NCBI RefSeq assembly: GCF_027943725.1
Contig: NZ_AP025696.1
Location: 310,001 to 374,000, forward strand
Length of the DNA: 64,000 bases
Origin: Nitrosophilus kaiyonis
GTDB taxonomy: Bacteria > Campylobacterota > Campylobacteria > Campylobacterales > Nitratiruptoraceae
Reading direction: 5' to 3'
Made by a program: the position numbers and the translations under genes. Below the pieces are notes generated by a model, which saw only the letters and a list, made by a program, of their open reading frames with translations, made no database searches and was not told where the DNA came from. Shown piece after piece: positions 2,683-63,694 of the stretch; the stretch's first letter is position 1, and every line of letters starts with the position of its first letter.

Positions 2683-2820
2683 ATTTTGACATTGGTCATT
2701 GGACATTAGACATTGGGAATTAGTGATAGTGATAGTGTTAATGTTAAACTATCACTATCCACCATCACTAAACCCTTATACCTTCATCCTTCATCCTTCA
2801 TCCTTTTCCGCTTCACAGCT
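2683..2820. repeat. Heptamer-type intergenic repeat block
   Basis: The gap between priA and the next gene contains CATTGGA/CATTAGA words, a GTGATAGTGATAGTG stretch, three tandem CTTCATC units (about 2786-2806), then CCGCTTCACAGC words. Period is about 7 bp. No coding sense or promoter is evident. Confidence 0.75.
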
Positions 2821-8764: not shown

Positions 8765-8878
8765 GAGGTTAGTCATTAGTCAATAGTCATTAGTCATTAG
8801 AAATTGGCCACTTTATTTCGTGATCCGTAATTCGTGATTCGTGAATTGTAATTTGGAATTGAAACCTCTGAAAAATTA
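8765..8878. repeat. Heptamer-type intergenic repeat block
   Basis: Directly after uvrB: TTAGTCA/ATAGTCA words followed by CGTAATT/CGTGATT/CGTGAAT words and TTTGGAATT. Period near 7 bp. The same word series occurs at 25.5, 28.7, 42.2 and 54.7 kb, in either orientation. Confidence 0.8.
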
Positions 8879-8889
8879 CAAATTGAACA

Positions 8890-8946
8890 AAGGCTTTGTA
8901 TTTTGTCCTCGCTTTGCTGCGGGGTTGTCGCCTTTGGCTCGGACAG
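8890..8946. repeat. Possible three-way-junction structured segment
   Basis: TGTCC and GGACA enclose two hairpins: CCTCGC-TTTGCT-GCGGGG and GCC-TTT-GGC. It is far more GC-rich than its surroundings. It adjoins the structured element at 8948-9034 and may be part of it or a decayed relative of the 170-bp family. Confidence 0.4.
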
Positions 8947-8947
8947 C

Positions 8948-9034
8948 TTGAAAATTTTATGTTGGCCTTTAGGCCAAAAAAGTGCACTCACCCCTAAGGG
9001 CGCTTGCGTTTGCACTTTTTAATAAAATTTTTAA
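8948..9034. repeat. Structured repeat family 2, copy 1
   Basis: Nested inverted repeats: AAAATTTTAT pairs with ATAAAATTTT, inside it AGTGCA with TGCACT, plus a TTGGCC-TTTA-GGCCAA hairpin. The central CACTCACCCCTAAGGGCGCTT is similar to a segment near 41.13 kb (CACTTAACCC-GTTT-GGGTACTT). No open reading frame of note. Could act as a terminator or as a mobile structured element. Confidence 0.55.
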
Positions 9035-9118
9035 GCGTTAATCAACTAAAAATTTCAACTCGCCTGAGTGAAATTTGGTAATTTTTCAGAACATTCAATT
9101 AGAAATTTATCACTTGAA

Positions 9119-11701: not shown

Positions 11702-13792
11702 ATGATAAATTTAAAAGATCCTAAACTATTTATAAACAGAGAACTATCCTGGCTAAGATTTAATACAAGAGTTTTAGAAGAAGCCCAAAAAAAAGAAAAC
11801 CCTTTACTTGAGAGATTAAAATTTATAGCAATTTATGGAACAAATTTAGATGAATTTTATATGATAAGAGTTGCTGGATTAAAGCAGTTATTTAAATCAA
11901 GAGTCTCAGTTACTGGCCCAGATAAGATGTCTCCTCTTTCACAATTAAAAGCAATAAGGGCCTATCTTCATAATGAAAAAGAGATAGTTGAAAAAACATT
12001 TTTTGAAATAATCGAGCAGTTAAATAAAGAGGGACTTTATATTAAAAATTATAAAGATTTAGATAATAATACAAAAAAAGAGATAGATAAATACTTTTTC
12101 AATCAACTATATCCTGTTATTATTCCTATTGCAGTTGACGCAACACACCCTTTTCCTCATTTAAACAATCTAAGTTTTGCTCTTGCTATAAAACTTGCAG
12201 ATATTCAAAATGAAAATGATATAAAATATGCTCTTATTAGAATTCCAAGAGTTTTACCAAGATTTATACAAATTGACAATACATATGTTCCTATTGAATC
12301 TGTTGTTCAAGAACATATAAGCTCCCTATTCCCGGGATATAAACTTATTTCAAGTGCACCTTTTAGAGTAACAAGAAATGCCGACATCGAGATAGAAGAA
12401 GAGGAAGCCGATGATTTTATGGAGCTTTTGGAAGAGGGACTAAAACTTAGAAGAAAAGGCGAAATTGTAAGGCTTGAAATTGGAGAGAGTGTTGATGAAG
12501 ATCTGCTTGATTTTTTAAATTCTCATATACAAGTCTTTAAAGATGATATATACAAATATAAAATGCCTCTAAATATGGGCAGTCTTTGGCAAATAGTTTC
12601 AAACAAAAGTTTTGCCCATCTTCTATTTGAGCCATTTACTCCAAAAACACTGCCACCTCTTGACCAAGAAGATATTTTTAGTATAGTTGAGCATGAAGAT
12701 ATTCTTTTATATCATCCTTATGAGAGTTTTGATCCAGTTGTAAAATTTATAGAAGAGGCGAGTAAAGATCCAAATGTTTTAGCTATAAGAATGACCCTAT
12801 ATAGAGTAGGAAAAGATTCGCCTATTGTAAAAGCTTTAATAGAAGCAGCTGAAAGCGGTAAACAAGTAACTGCAATGGTTGAATTAAAAGCAAGATTTGA
12901 TGAAGAAAATAATCTAATCTGGGCAAAAGCATTAGAAGATGCTGGAGCTCATGTTATATTTGGAATACCTGGATTTAAAGTACATGCAAAAATAGCTCAA
13001 ATTATTAAAAAAGAGGGAGATAAATTAAAACAGTTTGTTCATCTATCAACAGGTAACTACAATCCATCTACTGCAAGAATATATACAGATGCTAGCTTTT
13101 TTACTTCAAAAAAAGAGATAACTGATGATGCAACTAGATTTTTTCATTATCTAACAGGATTTTCAAAAAAAGGAAAATTAAACACACTATTTATGTCTCC
13201 AACACAAATAAAACCAAAACTTTTAAGCTTAATAGAAAATGAAACTAAAAAAGGAAATGAAGGAAAAATAATAGCTAAAATGAACTCATTAGTTGATCCT
13301 GATGTCATAGTGGCACTTTATAAAGCTTCAAGAGCAGGTGTAAAAATTGATCTAATAGTTAGAGGAATATGTTGTCTTAGACCAAAAGTAAAAGATATTA
13401 GTGAAAACATAAGGGTTATATCTATAGTTGGAAAATATTTAGAACATGCAAGGATTTTTTATTTTAAACACTCAAAACCACAAATATTCATCTCAAGTGC
13501 TGATTGGATGCCAAGAAATTTAGAGAGAAGAATAGAGTTAATGACCCCTATTTATGATAATGAAATATCTGAAAAGTTATTTGAAATATTAAATCTTCAA
13601 ATAAATGATAATGTTTTAGCCAGAGAACTTCAAGAAAATGGAGAATATATCAATATAAAAAGAGAAGGAAAAACACCTATAAATTCACAACTTGTTATGG
13701 AAGAGTATACAAATATGCTTTACTCTACCCATAAAAAAACAAATGTCAGTAGAGCTAAAAAACTTGCAAGAAGACTTTTGAAGGAGAGTTAG
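11702..13792 (+). CDS. ppk: Polyphosphate kinase 1
   Basis: PPK1 polymerises the terminal phosphate of ATP into polyphosphate. 696 residues, full length. It starts with the N-terminal helical domain ([20 protein letters not shown]) and has the two PLD-like catalytic domains: GFKVHAK carries the histidine (H428) expected to be phosphorylated, and the following STGNYNP motif is the family signature. The ATG has AAGGATATCTAAAA before it. The TAG stop at 13790-13792 lies inside the first bases of a structured repeat element (TTAGCGAGGG). The phosphate transporter two genes away fits a phosphate storage role. Confidence 0.97.
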
Positions 13793-13963
13793 CGAGGGTA
13801 AAGCGAAGCTTTAGCAAAACAACTGCTTGTTTTGCGTACCCAAGCGCAAGCTGTGAGTTTATGCGAATCCTAAAATCAAGGATTTTAGTGATAAGCATAC
13901 GAACAGCTGGTATACCGAAAAACAAATCAAATGAGCAAAGAGCGAATGAAGATTTGTGGTTAA
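13788..13963 (+). repeat. Structured repeat family 1 (HEARO/omega-RNA-like candidate), copy A
   Basis: Stems seen in order: GGGTA/TACCC enclosing AAGC-GAA-GCTT and CAAAACA-ACTGCT-TGTTTTG; AGCTGT/ACAGCT enclosing CTAAAATC-AAG-GATTTTAG; then ACAAATC/GATTTGT. Other copies keep each stem but with different bases on both arms. It begins at the ppk stop codon and has the same orientation, so ppk read-through would transcribe it. No coding potential of note. Confidence 0.8.
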
Positions 13964-14080
13964 AGTAAGGTAAGTAAGAAATTTTTAGTGAGAAAGAGAG
14001 AGTTAGAAGGTAAGAAAGCTATAAAGTAGTAGAGAAGGTGATAAGGAGTGAAGCTGTGAAGCGGGATAGCGGAGAAGTGA
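13964..14080. repeat. Degenerate repeat block between two structured copies
   Basis: GTAAGGTAAGTAAG and GTGAAGC/GGATAGC/GGAGAAG words, the complement of the CCGCTTCACAGC series found elsewhere. Ends with AAGTGA directly before the next structured copy. Confidence 0.65.
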
Positions 14081-14250
14081 ACGAGGGCAAGCCAAAGGCT
14101 TAAGAAGGCAACTGCTTGCCTTCTGCGCCCGAGCGAAAGCCTTGAATATATGTGAGTCCGAAAAACAAGGTTTTTCGTGACGAATATTTGAGAGGCTGGT
14201 TTACATTGAAGAAAATCAAGTAAGCTATGCAAGCGAAGATTTTCGGTTAG
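14077..14250 (+). repeat. Structured repeat family 1, copy B
   Basis: Tandem to copy A and in the same orientation. Stems: GGGC/GCCC, AAGCC-AAA-GGCTT, GAAGGCA-ACTGCT-TGCCTTC, AGCC/GGCT, CGAAAAAC-AAG-GTTTTTCG, GAAAATC/GATTTTC. Compared with copy A both arms of nearly every stem differ together. It is preceded by GTGA. Confidence 0.8.
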
Positions 14251-14261
14251 TTTTAAGTGGA

Positions 14262-14365
14262 ATAGGAAGTAAGAGGTGAAGCGGCCAATTCCTAATTCCT
14301 AATTCCTAATGACCAATGACTAATTACTAATTACTAATGTCTAATGTCTAATGTCCAATGACTAA
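14262..14365. repeat. Clear 7-bp tandem repeat tract
   Basis: From about 14285 to 14363 roughly eleven consecutive heptamers of the type AATKWCT (AATTCCT, AATGACC, AATTACT, AATGTCT, AATGACT). This is the best-preserved example of the genome's 7-bp repeat words. With copies A and B it fills the 589-bp gap between ppk and the next gene. Confidence 0.85.
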
Positions 14366-25111: not shown

Positions 25112-25215
25112 TTTAGTTAAATAGTTAAGTAGTTAAGTTGTTGAGTAGTTGAATTAATTTTACCTTTAAAGCAACAGCCATTTAACAAATTAACTACTTA
25201 ACCACTTAACTACTC
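25112..25215. repeat. Inverted repeat words between acpP and fabF
   Basis: AGTTAAGTAGTTAAGTTGTTGAGTAG words on one side and their complement (AACTACTTAACCACTTAACTAC) on the other, about 40 bp apart. The two halves can pair to form a long imperfect hairpin in the operon's mRNA. Confidence 0.6.
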
Positions 25216-25219
25216 ATCT

Positions 25220-25240
25220 AAGCAGGCAAAAAGCCTGCTT
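25220..25240 (-). terminator. Hairpin after acpP (attenuator or terminator)
   Basis: AAGCAGGC, five-base loop, GCCTGCTT. It lies four bases after the acpP stop. The U-run is in the loop or on the opposite side for this strand, so it may stabilise the acpP mRNA end or reduce read-through into fabF rather than fully stop it. Confidence 0.5.
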
Positions 25241-25527: not shown

Positions 25528-25720
25528 TAAGTGGACATTAGACATTGGACACTTTGTTTCGTAATCCGTAATTCGTGAATCGTAATCTGGATTTTGGAAT
25601 TAGAAATTTATTTATTACTTGAAACTTCAAACTTGAAGTTTTTGATATTAGCTACTTCACAGTTTCTCTGCTTCCCCGCTTATCTATTTAACACCTTACT
25701 TATCTAAATCTAACCAAAAA
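25528..25720. repeat. Heptamer-type intergenic repeat block
   Basis: GGACATTAGACATTGGACA, then CGTAATC/CGTAATT/CGTGAAT words, TTGGAATTAGAAATT, then ACTTGAAACTTCAAACTTGAAG and CTTCACAG/CTTCCCCGC words. A very similar series occurs in the opposite orientation at 28650-28790. Confidence 0.8.
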
Positions 25721-25721
25721 T

Positions 25722-26098
25722 CTTCACTTTCTTCGCTCGCTTGATTTTCTTCAAGCGAACAAAGGTATTGCGTAAGCAATAGGAGTTAAACTGCTTTAAC
25801 TCCGTACCTTTGTGAGAAGTTTTTGTTTATGCAAGCCCTATATTGCTTACAATATAGTGGCGAGCATACAAAAACTTAGTTTACCTTAGAGCAAATTTTA
25901 GTTTGTTAAAACAAAATTTGCGGTTAATTTTTATACTCAAAGCTTTCGCTCAGGTACAGGAGAAGCGTTAAGCAAACGCCAACTGCTTGTCGTTTGTAGC
26001 TTCGCACGGCAAAGTGTTTATGCAAAGCAAAGAGATTGCATAGCTTACACCAGTTGCCAAGCAGTTGTTGTCCTAAAGCTTCGCTTTACCCTCGCTCA
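25722..26098 (-). repeat. Mosaic of structured repeat family 1, copy C
   Basis: Read on the minus strand it begins TGAGCGAGGGTAAAGCG, where TGA is the fabG stop, passes through AAGCGAAGCTTT and ACAACTGCTTG, and ends with GAAAATCAAGCGAGCG and GATTTTTGGTTA as in the other copies. In between about 200 extra bases contain further pieces (GACAAGCAGTTGG, CCTGAGCGAAAGC, AGTTAAAGCAG-TTTAACT hairpin). It looks like copies inserted into or recombined with one another. With the heptamer block it fills the 618-bp gap. Confidence 0.7.
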
Positions 26099-26839
26099 CA
26101 TATACATTCCGCCGTTTACTTTGATGATCTCTCCTGTTATATAGCTTGAATGATCGCTTAATAAAAATGCAACTGCTTCAGCCACCTCTTTTGGATCACC
26201 AAATCTTCTAAGAGGTATTTTTTCAATATATGCTTTTTTAATATCCTCTTTTAACTCTTTTGTCATGTCTGTTGCAATAAATCCAGGTGTAATGCAGTTA
26301 AATCTAATACCTCTTGCAGCTCCCTCAAGTGCAAAAGATTTTGTCATAGTTATCATACCACCTTTGCTTGCACTATAATTTACCTGTCCAGCATTTCCGG
26401 TTTCACCAACTATTGAAGAGATATTAACAACACATCCAAATCTTTTTTTACTCATAGCTTTTAAAGCTTCTCTACATCCTATAAAAGCAGATGTTAAGTT
26501 AGCTTTTATAACATCTTCAAAATCTTCTACACTCATTCTTATTGCAAGTTTATCTTTTGTAATACCTGCATTATTCACAAGATAACTAAGTTCACCATCA
26601 CTATCAATTATCGTCTTTATACCTTCAACAAAAGCTTTTTCATCACTTACATCAAATCCTATTACTGCAGCTTCTCCCCCATTTGCTTCTATCTCTTCTT
26701 TTATTTTGTCTGCAGCTTCTGCATTTGATCTATAATTTATCCAAACTTTAAGTCCATATCCAGCCAAAACTTTGGCTATTTCAGCCCCTATTCCCCTACT
26801 TGCGCCAGTAACTAAAACATTTTTTCCACTAAATTTCAT
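26096..26839 (-). CDS. fabG: 3-oxoacyl-ACP reductase
   Basis: NADPH-dependent reductase of fatty acid elongation, SDR family, 247 residues. Cofactor motif TGASRGIG (11-18), NNAG motif, and catalytic YSASK are all present. The stop codon TGA is the first three bases of the structured repeat (TGAGCGAGGG), and the last residues GGMYM are normal for the family (usually GGxYM), so the element has not cut the protein. AGGAGTAAAC precedes the ATG. Confidence 0.97.
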   Translation of the reverse strand: MKFSGKNVLVTGASRGIGAEIAKVLAGYGLKVWINYRSNAEAADKIKEEIEANGGEAAVIGFDVSDEKAFVEGIKTIIDSDGELSYLVNNAGITKDKLAIRMSVEDFEDVIKANLTSAFIGCREALKAMSKKRFGCVVNISSIVGETGNAGQVNYSASKGGMITMTKSFALEGAARGIRFNCITPGFIATDMTKELKEDIKKAYIEKIPLRRFGDPKEVAEAVAFLLSDHSSYITGEIIKVNGGMYM

Positions 26840-28544: not shown

Positions 28545-28795
28545 TAGGTGACAATTGGTCATTAGTCATTGGTAAGATTTAGTGATAGTGGATTAGTGGA
28601 ATAGGAGCATAGCAGGTAGAATAGATTATAAGCGGAGAAGCAGAGAAGCTGTGAAGTAGCCAATGTCAAAAACTTCAAGTTTCAAGTTTGAAGTTTCAAG
28701 TAATAAATAAATTTCTAATTCCAAAATCCAAATTACGATTCATGAATTACGAATCACGAAACAAAGTGTCCAATGTCTAATTAACAAATTTAAAA
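28545..28795. repeat. Long word-repeat block in gpmI-mraY divergent gap
   Basis: TTGGTCATTAGTCATTGG, AGTGATAGTGG, AGCGGAGAAGCAGAGAAGCTGTGAAG (in pieces), AACTTCAAGTTTCAAGTTTG, then CAAAATCCAAATTACGATTC words and CAATGTCTAAT. It is the approximate reverse complement of the block at 25.5-25.7 kb. This fills the 326-bp gap; no clear promoter for mraY stands out. Confidence 0.75.
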
Positions 28796-37099: not shown

Positions 37100-37165
37100 T
37101 TAGTATATTGGTGTATTGGTATATTAGTATATTGGAAAATAACCAATATACCAATAACTATTAAC
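37100..37165. repeat. 8-bp-period AT repeat
   Basis: Four tandem GTATATTG-type octamers followed by their complement (CCAATATACCAAT), which can form a hairpin at the 3' end of miaB or before the DUF374 gene. It is the one repeat block with a period of 8 instead of 7. Confidence 0.65.
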
Positions 37166-38462: not shown

Positions 38463-38482
38463 TATATCATCCTTTATCTTTA

Positions 38483-38622
38483 GTTAAGTAGTTAAAATGG
38501 TTAAAATAGTTGAGTGATATAGAGTGGGGAGTAAGGAGTATGGAGGTATTATCCCTTATCACTTATCCCTTCCCCGCTTCACTCCTTCTAACTTCTCTAC
38601 TCAACCGCTCAACTACTCAACT
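38483..38622. repeat. Heptamer-type intergenic repeat block
   Basis: AGTTAAGTAGTTAAAATGG words, GGAGTAAGGAGTATGG, CTTATCACTTATCCC, then CTCAACCGCTCAACTACTCAAC. The two ends are complementary. Confidence 0.7.
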
Positions 38623-38965: not shown

Positions 38966-38974
38966 AGCTCAAAT

Positions 38975-39149
38975 TTAACCGAAAATCATCATTCGCTTCG
39001 CTCATTTGATTTTCTTTAAGGTAAACCATCTGTTCGTATGCTCAGACACAAAATTCCTTGAATTTCGGCTTCGCATATACTCACAGCTTTCGCTCGGGCA
39101 CAGACAACAAGCAGTTGTTGTCTTAAAGCTTCGCTTTGCCCTCGCTCAC
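38975..39149 (-). repeat. Structured repeat family 1, copy D
   Basis: Minus-strand reading: GTGA, GCGAGGGCA, AAGC-GAA-GCTT, AGACAACA-ACTGCT-TGTTGTCT, TGCCC, GAGCGAAAGCTGT, CGAAATTC-AAG-GAATTTTG, ACAG, GAAAATC and GATTTTC. It lies 56 bp after the nusA stop and in the same orientation. With flanking heptamers it fills the 336-bp gap between the HP0268-type gene and nusA. Confidence 0.8.
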
Positions 39150-42189: not shown

Positions 42190-42425
42190 CATTAGACATT
42201 GGACATTGGCAACTTTTTCGTAAATCGTAATTCGTGAATCGTGAAAGGTAATTCAGAATTATTGCTAAGTGCTAAGTTATTACATATCACTAAATCATAC
42301 CAATTCAAATCTTAACTCTTAAATCTTAGCTCTTAGCTCTAACTCACCTTATTCACCTATTCCACTATGCCCCTATTCCACTTTCTCATTTTCTCGCTCA
42401 CCTAACTCACCATACTCAATTATAT
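42190..42425. repeat. Heptamer-type intergenic repeat block
   Basis: TTAGACATTGGACATTGG, CGTAAATCGTAATTCGTGAATCG, GCTAAGTGCTAAG, CTTAACTCTTAAATCTTAGC, then CTCACCTTATTCACC and CTCGCTCACCTAACTCACC. Nearly every word family of the window is present in this one gap. Confidence 0.8.
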
Positions 42426-44761: not shown

Positions 44762-45009
44762 ATAGTCATTAGTCATTAGTTATTAGTCATTGGGAATTAG
44801 GAATTAGGTATTAGTATGTTACTACAGACTATAAACTAAAAACTCCTAACTTACCTAATCCTTATCCCATAACCTTTCAGTATTCTACCTTCAACCTTAT
44901 TGGACATTGGACATTAATATTAAGAGTTAAGCTAAAAGCTAAACATTATCACTTAGCTATACTAAATCCTATTTACTTAACTCTTAAATCTTAGCTCTTA
45001 CTTATCTAC
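44762..45009. repeat. Heptamer-type intergenic repeat block
   Basis: ATAGTCATTAGTCATTAGTTATTAG, GGAATTAGGAATTAGG, TTGGACATTGGACATTAA, TTAAGAGTTAAGC, and CTTAACTCTTAAATCTTAGC words. It fills the gap between the porin promoter and the fabI stop. Confidence 0.75.
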
Positions 45010-49277: not shown

Positions 49278-49470
49278 TATTAATGGTGAGTGAGATGAGT
49301 TAGATTTAAGAATTAAGAGTTAAGATTTAAGTAAGCAGAATTTAGTGACAGTGATAGTGATTGTGGATAGTGGTATATAATAACTTAATACTTAACTCTT
49401 ATTACTTAGCACTAATTCTTAATTACGAATTACGAATTAAGTAGCTAATGACTAATGACTAAATATAAGG
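49278..49470. repeat. Word-repeat block in gapA-nadD gap
   Basis: GTGAGTGAGATGAG, TTAAGAATTAAGAGTTAAGATTTAAG, GTGACAGTGATAGTGATTGTGG, CTTAATACTTAACTCTTATTACTTAGC, then AATGACTAATGACTAA. The stretch right before nadD ends with TAAGGAATATAATG, its binding site. Confidence 0.7.
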
Positions 49471-49476
49471 AATATA

Positions 49477-50016
49477 ATGAAAATAGCGGTTTTTGGAGGA
49501 AGTTTTGATCCTATTCATTTAGGGCATATAAAAATAATCCAAGAGGCTTTAAAAAATTTAGATATTGATAAACTTATAGTAGTGCCAACCTATTTAAATC
49601 CATTCAAATCAAAATTTGCAGCTCCTCCAAAACTAAGAGCCAAATGGCTTAAGATTGCTCTTTTTCCTTATAAAAAAGTTGATATATCTTTATTTGAGAT
49701 AAAAAATCAAAGACCAACATATATGATTGAAACTATAGAGTATCTTAAGAAAAAATATCATCCAACAAAAATATACTTAATAATAGGTGCTGATAATATA
49801 AAAGATCTTCATAAATGGCACAATTTTAAAAAACTAAAAAATGAAGTTGAATTTGTAGTTGCAAAAAGATCAAGAATAAAAGTTCCTTCAAAATATAAAG
49901 TTTTAAATGTGAATGTTCCCATTAGTGCAACAGAACTTAGAAAGAAACCGATAAAAAAATTTTTACCAAAAATTGTAGCTAATGAAATAATTAGATTTTA
50001 TGAGCATTGTCATTAG
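49477..50016 (+). CDS. nadD: Nicotinate-nucleotide adenylyltransferase
   Basis: Makes deamido-NAD from nicotinate mononucleotide. 179 residues. The nucleotidyltransferase signature GGSFDPIHLGHIK is at the N-terminus, and the C-terminal SATELRKKP (ISxTxxR type) completes it. It is divergent from gapA; in Campylobacter jejuni the same neighbours occur. Start ATG follows AAGGAAT. Confidence 0.95.
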   Translation: MKIAVFGGSFDPIHLGHIKIIQEALKNLDIDKLIVVPTYLNPFKSKFAAPPKLRAKWLKIALFPYKKVDISLFEIKNQRPTYMIETIEYLKKKYHPTKIYLIIGADNIKDLHKWHNFKKLKNEVEFVVAKRSRIKVPSKYKVLNVNVPISATELRKKPIKKFLPKIVANEIIRFYEHCH

Positions 50017-50110
50017 ACATTAGACATTGGTCATTTGTCATTAGTAATTGGGAAATAGTATTAAGTGTTAAGTTTTCAACTAAATTGTACTTATTTAGCT
50101 CTTAAATCTT
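50014..50110. repeat. Heptamer-type intergenic repeat block
   Basis: TTAGACATTAGACATTGGTCATTTGTCATTAGTAATTGG (in 7-bp units), then TTAAGTGTTAAG and CTCTTAAATCTTAA, directly after the nadD stop. Confidence 0.7.
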
Positions 50111-52088: not shown

Positions 52089-52096
52089 AGTTTATC

Positions 52097-52172
52097 CTTT
52101 ATGAGTATTAAGTTATAAGAGCTAAGTGTTAAGTAATAACATCTTAATTCTTAACACTTAACACTTAATTCT
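52097..52172. repeat. Heptamer words between tatA and argS
   Basis: GTATTAAGTTATAAGAGCTAAGTGTTAAG and CTTAATTCTTAACACTTAACACTTAA, complementary halves able to pair in the mRNA. Confidence 0.6.
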
Positions 52173-52175
52173 AAA

Positions 52176-54649: not shown

Positions 54650-54828
54650 CATCGGACATTTTGTTCGTGAATCGTGAACCGTAATTCGTGAATCGTAATT
54701 TGGATTTTGGAATTTATTACTTGAAACTAATTTATCATTGGACATTAGCTTCTTTACAGCTTGCCCATCTTTAACTTTCTTTCTCTCTCATTTTCTCATT
54801 TTCCCACTTTCTCACTTTCTCACTCACC
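54648..54828. repeat. Heptamer-type intergenic repeat block
   Basis: TTGACATCGGACATT, TTCGTGAATCGTGAACCGTAATTCGTGAATCG, TTTGGATTTTGGAATT, TTACTTGAAACTAAT, then TCTCACTTTCTCACTCACCTCACTCACC. It runs from the nuclease stop codon to the end of the LolD-like gene. Confidence 0.75.
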
Positions 54829-58594: not shown

Positions 58595-58721
58595 TTAATT
58601 TTGACATTAGATATTAAAACTTAGTGTTAAGTATTAAGAGTTAAGTGCTAAGTTTTTAAATTATCACTAAACTTTAAACCTAAACTCTTAGCTCTTAAAT
58701 CTTAATTCTAACTCACCATAC
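58595..58721. repeat. Heptamer-type intergenic repeat block
   Basis: TTGACATTAGATATT, TTAGTGTTAAGTATTAAGAGTTAAGTGC, CTTAGCTCTTAAATCTTAATTC and CTCACCATACTCACC. Confidence 0.7.
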
Positions 58722-61616: not shown

Positions 61617-61705
61617 ATGAGTAAGTTGAGTATGATAAGTAGAGTGAGTAAGTAAGTTATTTTGTCTTACTCACCTAACTCAACTTACTCATCTTACTCA
61701 ACCAA
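61614..61705. repeat. Heptamer-type repeat block with complementary halves
   Basis: AGATGAGTAAGTTGAGTATGATAAGTAGAGTGAG and then CTTACTCACCTAACTCAACTTACTCATC. The two halves are reverse complements and form a long imperfect hairpin after ilvE. Confidence 0.7.
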
Positions 61706-61722
61706 ACTAAAAAAGGAGAATT

Positions 61723-63471: not shown

Positions 63472-63517
63472 AATAGGGGCATAGGTGACAAGGTGGTAAG
63501 GGGATAAGGAGTGAAGT
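63472..63517. repeat. Short word-repeat block after hisIE
   Basis: AGGGGCATAGGTGACAAGGTGGTAAGGGGATAAGGAGTGAAGTGA (about 7-8-bp units), leading into structured copy E. Confidence 0.55.
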
Positions 63518-63690
63518 GAGCAAAGGCAAAGCAAAGGCTTTAGGACAATAACTGCTTGTTGTCCGTGCCTGAGCGAAAGCCTTGAGTATATGTGAGTCCG
63601 AAAAACAATATTTTTCGTGACAAATATACGAAAGGCTGGTTTACCTTGAAGAAAATCAAGCTAGCGAAGCAAGCAAAGATTTTCGGTTAG
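63515..63690 (+). repeat. Structured repeat family 1, copy E
   Basis: GTGA, then AGGCA/TGCCT enclosing AAAGC-AAA-GGCTTT and GGACAATA-ACTGCT-TGTTGTCC; AGCCTT/AAGGCT enclosing CGAAAAACAATATTTTTCG; GAAAATC/GATTTTC at the end, then GGTTAG. Same orientation as hisIE, whose stop is about 45 bp upstream. Confidence 0.8.
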
Positions 63691-63694
63691 TTTT

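Follow-up and report, generated by a model that had tools for sequence, protein, structure and literature searches.

The intergenic DNA of Nitrosophilus kaiyonis, a deep-sea vent bacterium of the Nitratiruptoraceae and a close relative of N. labii, contains stretches such as that at 14262-14365 of the window (the whole 64,000-nt stretch of DNA that was analysed, bases 310001-374000 of a closed genome of 1.77 Mb) in which degenerate 7-bp words follow one another in tandem. This locus raises the question of how such arrays arise and whether they are needed. To our knowledge, bacterial heptamer repeats have so far been described word by word, and their origin has no accepted account. With dozens of word families in one genome, array-free junctions in a congener and an order rule that holds elsewhere, the origin becomes testable, and the answer bears on the origin of bacterial intergenic DNA in general. 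Any mechanism must account for a 7/8-bp step, a C-poor strand and a fixed orientation.

A first-pass annotation of the window had described degenerate tandem heptamers filling most intergenic gaps, and had proposed a period analysis against shuffled controls as the check. With dinucleotide-preserving shuffles as the null model for both lag and tract tests, the lag-7 match frequency in the window gaps is 0.396 versus 0.301 in the shuffles (z=20), with harmonics at lags 14 and 21 (z=7 and 9). Lag 8 is raised as well (z=8.8), so octamers belong to the arrays too. Extending the analysis to a genome sample of 464 kb (the window plus 20 spaced stretches of 20 kb, about 26% of the genome) gives z=22 for lag 7 and z=17 for lag 8, which places period 7 far above the shuffles genome-wide. 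Coding sequence has no lag-7 peak and displays the codon period only. Strict tract calling recovers 27 tracts in the 36 window gaps of at least 80 bp versus 0.12 (maximum 1) in the shuffles, and 90 tracts versus 0.2 in the 464-kb sample. The tandem heptamers are thus real, but the statement that they fill most gaps was too strong. In the sample, 46% of the gaps that reach 80 bp hold a strict tract, compared with 17% for N. labii and 2% for other relatives. Among window gaps of at least 40 bp, strict tracts are present in 19 of 42, or 25 of 42 under a relaxed rule (shuffled mean 3.5). Gaps were delimited by uncurated longest-ORF calls, in which some start sites are certainly wrong. Tracts were counted in these gaps, with 14 of the 103 in the sample touching an ORF end, and the absence of a lag-7 peak from coding sequence marks the arrays as mainly intergenic. 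Arrays that reach called ORF ends are found, for example, at window positions 2688-2716, 44763-44791 and 50011-50044, where they may alter C-termini or mislead start-codon calls.

The tract that raised the question had been described as about eleven units at 14285-14363. TRF bears this out with two overlapping 7-bp arrays, 14287-14338 (7.4 copies) and 14306-14365 (8.6 copies), that amount to about eleven units in all. This tract and the other arrays of the window are listed below, where G-form denotes the C-poor words and C-form their G-poor complements.

14285..14363, minus strand: the reported tract, about eleven heptamers in C-form (plus strand CTAATGA/CTAATTA/CTAATTC/CTAATGT; minus strand TTAGTCA/TTAGTAA/TTAGGAA/TTAGACA)
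14262..14284, plus strand: G-form words (GTAAGAGGTGAAGCGG) that join the C-form tract at a recurring junction of GTGAAGCGG with CCAATTCC
2707..2820, unstranded: TTRG words, a GTGATAG hairpin and CTTCATC words; an insert relative to N. labii (114 versus 0 bp)
8769..8864, plus strand: TTAGTCA array, then CGTGAAT/CGTAATT array, in the same order as at 25.6, 28.7 and 42.2 kb
25112..25220, unstranded: octamer hairpin with a AGTTAAGT/AGTTGAGT arm, a spacer and a AACTACTT arm (RNA fold z=-6.3)
25537..25683, plus strand: word block CATTGGACA - CGTAATT - TTGGAATTAG - ACTTGAA - GCTTCAC, with a 90% inverted copy at 28628-28781
28628..28781, minus strand: the inverted copy of the 25.6-kb word block
37103..37160, unstranded: ATTGGTAT/ATACCAAT octamer hairpin; gap of 64 bp versus 3 bp in N. 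labii
38478..38622, unstranded: concentric hairpin array; gap of 160 bp versus 11 bp in N. labii
42193..42425, unstranded: TTGGACA, CGTAATT, CTCTTAA and ACTCACC families in that order; 233 versus 42 bp in N. labii
44770..45009, unstranded: TTAGTCA/TTAGGAA arm, then C-form words; 240 versus 134 bp in N. labii
49286..49462, unstranded: concentric families in a divergent gap, GTGAGTG, TTAAGAG and GTGATAG, then CTTAACT, AATTACG and CTAATGA; 258 versus 126 bp in N. labii
52098..52175, unstranded: TTAAGTG/CACTTAA hairpin; the same gap (52089-52175) has another word, GGAGTAT, in N. labii
54650..54828, unstranded: CGTGAAT array, then CTCACTTT/ACTCACC arrays
58615..58721, unstranded: TTAAGAG/CTCTTAA hairpin
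61617..61712, unstranded: GTTGAGTA / TACTCAAC hairpin (RNA fold z=-6.7)

These gaps have a common layout in which C-poor words (TTAGTCA, TTAAGAG, GTTGAGT, GTGAAGC, GTGATAG and others) lie on the left and complementary G-poor forms lie on the right. The arrays are converging pairs of 7- or 8-bp units that fold into imperfect, often concentric hairpins, as at L007:1849-2036 where GTTGAGT and TTAAGAG are followed by a spacer, CTCTTAA and ACTCAAC. Arms from the same gap align better than arms from different gaps (26.1 versus 21.1, p=1e-6), and same-gap pairing is likewise better than pairing between gaps in N. labii (p=8e-10). Tract-bearing gaps have a GC skew that is positive in the left half and negative or zero in the right half, and they do so in every gene arrangement, whereas gaps without tracts have little or no such skew. 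General gap composition is for that reason rejected as the source of the order.

The co-occurrence of complementary forms in one gap had been recorded previously, and both forms are indeed present. What that description missed is that their order is fixed, with the G-form followed by the C-form in 66 of 69 adjacent tract pairs with clear skew (66:3), drawn from several phyla although very few of the pairs come from phyla outside Campylobacterota and Cyanobacteria. The counts are 14:0 in N. kaiyonis, 15:2 in N. labii, 3:0 in G015/G059 (high-GC G015 yields few composite arrays under the simple ORF caller and adds little), 31:1 in 104 mostly cyanobacterial scan loci and 3:0 in 13 named loci of other phyla, where the scan loci were selected by a TTRGKMA array and the sign of each tract was set by its own skew. 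Of the three exceptions, one has a tRNA-Ala gene between its tracts, which thus lie in two different gaps. The two others are at L113:11411-11497 and L206:2861-3103, the tracts of the latter being about 140 bp apart; a search for a riboswitch at the L206 exception gave no Rfam match at gathering thresholds. Selection on start regions is disfavoured as the sole cause of the order, since convergent gaps follow it too (10:1, a small number of pairs). Additionally, it is at its 5' side that the C-poor strand is closest to a gene edge (median 32 versus 101 bp, p=5e-10). As the facing arrangement is also found in distant bacteria, it probably reflects a shared way of growing intergenic DNA.

Turnover of the arrays was addressed with 104 gene pairs that are neighbours in both species, N. 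kaiyonis and N. labii, and whose proteins have a median identity of 74%. Tract-bearing gaps exceed their N. labii counterparts by a median of 109 bp, and other gaps show no difference in length (p=2e-8). At 15 of 19 tract-bearing gaps the tract is missing from the same N. labii gene pair, and where both species carry arrays the words can differ. Because Nitratiruptor and N. alvini are nearly array-free, gain in N. kaiyonis is a simpler reading than loss in N. labii. Relative to N. labii, the arrays are mostly insertions at conserved gene pairs, and an essential role is disfavoured by the junctions that lack them in the congener.

Their distribution over genomes is uneven. The first-pass annotation had noted that heptamer repeats are known in cyanobacteria and was aware of no such class in Campylobacterota, which is an incomplete picture. 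The TTRGKMA array pattern occurs patchily in 11 of 298 Campylobacterota genomes, and a scan of named genomes returned at least 117 loci, mainly from Cyanobacteria, with others from Bacteroidota, Chloroflexi, Xanthomonas, Verrucomicrobium, Fibrobacter, Fimbriimonadaceae and Francisellaceae. Within one genus, G015 has 209 TTRGKMA array hits and its congeners G043, G059 and G231 have none, a contrast that represents either a burst or a loss. The reversed pattern used as a control gave 5-15 hits in G181, G167 and G223, which indicates that other heptamer words form arrays there. Of the 86 words in N. labii, 34 also occur in N. kaiyonis versus 12 expected from letter shuffles. In contrast, cyanobacterial words outside TTRGKMA that are common to N. 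kaiyonis number 25 versus 17.4 expected, which is not above expectation. A vocabulary held in common with cyanobacteria is thus rejected as a sign of one template, as composition suffices once TTRGKMA tracts are removed.

Blocks of words are also copied between gaps. The 25.6- and 28.7-kb gaps have 154 bp in common at 90% identity in opposite orientation, and the gaps at 8.8, 42.2 and 54.7 kb match this block over 47-129 bp at 68-86%, in agreement with the earlier remark that word families recur in the same order, and in both orientations, in different gaps. Many gaps contain the same junction of TTGG with CCGCTTCAC, at which a TTAGGAA arm adjoins a GCTTCAC arm. Alignment gaps among related copies include 15 of length 7 versus 7 of length 6 and 4 of length 8, a small excess that points weakly to the slippage origin suggested in the initial description. 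A centre-to-edge decay test for the direction of growth was borderline (0.434 versus 0.398, p=0.05).

It is established that the arrays are inserted relative to the congener, are palindromic, follow a fixed order and are copied as blocks. We favour, at a confidence just short of even, the view that the arrays are fast-changing, non-essential intergenic DNA that originates by slippage, fold-back and block copying; that they are non-essential is itself probable. New units would be added when a DNA 3' end slips, so that each unit repeats its predecessor with slight changes. The second arm would be made either by that 3' end, folded back and copying its own strand, or by similar extension of the opposite 3' end, and a hairpin centre that is reopened and extended again would acquire concentric layers. 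The fixed order would follow from growth on the C-poor strand with its 3' end always toward the gap centre. Spread may occur partly by copying of word blocks between gaps, and arrays would persist in gaps because insertions within genes are selected against. Counted against it are the small size of the 7-base excess, the borderline outcome of the decay test, and the fact that some array folds are as stable as functional hairpins.

A first alternative is that the arrays are functional RNA hairpins kept to end or protect mRNA from either direction. The RNA folds of six window examples (z of -2.9 to -6.7) are better than all of their shuffles, arms match within a gap and arrays often lie directly 3' of stop codons. 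However, the same gene pairs in N. labii are without arrays, many of them inside apparent operons, several arrays lie in divergent gaps, and a T-run is neither required nor seen as a rule. Furthermore, a hairpin needs complementary arms but has no need for the G-form to come first, which leaves the order unaccounted for. We thus consider this alternative rather unlikely; the mRNA-end role raised in the first description is, as a requirement, improbable for most arrays given the N. labii gene pairs that do without them.

A second alternative is that each hairpin is a non-autonomous palindrome of MITE or REP type that is moved by a transposase, with nesting giving rise to the concentric families. 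Several ATTGGTAT hairpins do have common arms and a common spacer (L018:18817, L014:18873 and L021:12987), the 25.6/28.7-kb block has been copied at 90%, and inserts are present in one species and absent from the other. The arms are inverted, with outer ends that vary by word family. A terminal sequence common to these families was not recognised, and inspection by eye revealed no target duplication. A Y1 transposase (PF01797) is missing from the N. kaiyonis genome by a search that was positive in 22 of 60 relatives and in E. coli. An order rule that holds in distant phyla with different words is also hard to reconcile with one transposase, and we regard transposed palindromes as decidedly unlikely.

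It is also very doubtful that the arrays are binding sites of a regulator of translation or transcription, as proposed for the TAACTGA repeats of Beggiatoaceae (PMC4679880). Their proximity to gene edges (median distance 32 bp, measured from the C-poor strand at its 5' side) and the occurrence of the same words in several gaps would fit such a role, but the words are dozens and unrelated, convergent gaps carry arrays as well, and most arrays differ between congeners. Least probable of all, and hardly credible, is telomere-like addition, in which the two 3' ends of a break would each receive C-poor words from a self-templated enzyme or a template-independent polymerase before being joined. In its favour, the C-poor strand runs 3' to the centre on both sides as in fused telomeres, and the words are not only short and degenerate but also low in C (3-9% in the G-form, a form itself assigned by skew). 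Against it, cyanobacterial words outside TTRGKMA give no sign of a common template, and a search of the genome for the reverse transcriptase domain RVT_1 (PF00078), which very divergent enzymes would escape, found no match. With both domains missing from the genome, neither a Y1 transposase nor a reverse transcriptase is retained as a partner of the arrays.

Part of the gap DNA, including that just left of the reported tract, consists of E1, a dispersed repeat of about 177 nt that is separate from the word arrays. Copies are found at the following positions.

13789..13967, plus strand: E1 copy 1, which begins at the upstream ORF end
14078..14254, plus strand: E1 copy 2, between G-form words and directly left of the reported tract
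25756..25931, plus strand: E1 copy nested in an older minus-strand E1 (about 25706-26099)
38971..39148, minus strand: E1 copy between word arrays; gap of 336 bp versus 170 bp in N. labii
63517..63694, plus strand: E1 copy between G-form words
L012:4116-4292: E1 copy outside the window

A fold of three domains was derived from twelve copies, and 31 of its 52 pairs show double changes. Among 48 distinct copies from N. kaiyonis and relatives, in an alignment that was fitted to the model, 95.8% of pairs are kept and 45 of 52 have compensatory change, versus 34-46% paired in a slid-partner control. E1 matches number 35 in N. kaiyonis (some partial), 13 in N. labii and 13 in G002; several members of genus g3 have 2-7 each, and other families have some as well. 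Copies lie 3' of (A/G)AG in heptamer arrays or immediately at a stop codon, which is then supplied by the TGA of E1. In N. labii, G002 and Nitratiruptor-like genomes, E1 also occupies CRISPR-repeat-like sequence, either within it or at its start, in the order GACCCGATTTnAAG, E1, GGGATTGAG (L035, L037, L054 and L055 near 1501; L036 at 1501-1677; E1 starts in L038 and L039), which suggests mobility into repeat arrays. On these comparative grounds, E1 looks mobile and structure-dependent. In different species, copies can begin precisely at the stop codon of one and the same gene, as at L093:14401/L043:1501 and at L040/L044/L046/L056 near 1501; these were kept across species either as old insertions or as copies with a role.

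E1 is not a known Rfam family by covariance-model match: a search of the window at E<=0.1 found only a tRNA, and an E1 copy gave only chance snoRNA matches. IscB/IsrB (RRXRR, PF14239) as a partner of E1 had no match in the genome, in a search whose control was also without a match anywhere. Two further repeats were noticed. E2, of about 95 bp, reads on its other strand like E1 domains 1 and 2 and is inserted in the AACTGCTT hairpin of E1 copies at L004:2977-3247 (minus strand), L016:10979-11249 (plus strand) and window 25706-26099. A third repeat, with ends CTCTGAAAAATTAC and its complement GTAATTTTTCAGA and with internal hairpins, occurs at window positions of about 8858-9065, at L053 about 115-290 and at L012:18481-18614, and is present in N. 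labii too.

A broader reading would take the fixed order as a general law of bacterial heptamer arrays across phyla. Behind it would stand a common process in which breaks or fold-backs are extended at their 3' ends by C-poor units of 7-8 nt, with telomere-like polarity, so that intergenic DNA keeps being created in patchily distributed lineages, along with landing sites for E1. We offer this as a conjecture that is rather unlikely to hold.

As in the described class of intergenic heptamer repeats (STRR/LSSR), the 7-bp units in N. kaiyonis are far above chance and mainly intergenic, and 8-bp units occur as well. STRRs are intergenic tandem heptamers of filamentous cyanobacteria with TTGGTCA among their words, and TTGGTCA/TTAGTCA arrays are found in both systems. 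Unlike STRRs, the present arrays reside in a campylobacterote, and outside TTRGKMA the cyanobacterial words recur there no more than expected. We know of no statement of a G-then-C order for STRRs.

The repeats of Xanthomonas (GGGAATC) and Nostoc (GGGGA(C/T)T) are likewise intergenic 7-bp tandem units, described as one G-rich word per species in a study of G-quadruplexes (Rehm et al. 2015, PMC4692102). Xanthomonas has 70-75 convergent inverted heptamer pairs, and in both genera the G-strand repeats lie near the 5' neighbouring ORF in either ORF direction (Rehm et al. 2015, PMC4692102). The convergent pairs described here have the same geometry, with an order of 66:3 over all genomes counted and 32 versus 101 bp to the gene edge. 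The arrays of N. kaiyonis differ from both in being built from dozens of mostly non-quadruplex 7- and 8-bp words in concentric arrangement; the main words TTAGTCA, TTAAGAG, GTTGAGT and ATTGGTAT are without GGG, which is found only in some words such as TTGGGAA. Two close Xanthomonas species have 90% of repeats between the same genes (PMC4692102), whereas the arrays described here are mostly missing at the same junctions of a congener, one that is more distant than the Xanthomonas pair.

TAACTGA direct repeats of Beggiatoaceae, Cyanobacteria and Bacteroidetes were proposed to be a regulator site upstream of starts, with only one inverted case in BOGUAY (MacGregor 2015, PMC4679880). These too are intergenic heptamers beside gene starts with a patchy distribution over phyla, but they are short, direct repeats of one word, not converging pairs of many words. 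Long simple sequence repeats with 5-11-nt units have a 7-nt excess in patchy genomes, for which slippage was proposed (Mrazek et al. 2007, as cited in PMC4679880 and PMC4692102); compared with that account, the present units are degenerate and their arrays are paired in a fixed order. REP/BIME elements with RAYT are also dispersed intergenic hairpins, but the arrays of N. kaiyonis have no conserved core and reside in a genome without a Y1 transposase. Heptamer arrays are thus already known from cyanobacterial STRRs, Xanthomonas and Beggiatoaceae, as is convergent pairing from Xanthomonas. What is new is the lineage, the concentric 7/8-bp mosaic, the turnover, and a cross-phylum order rule that holds over many words.
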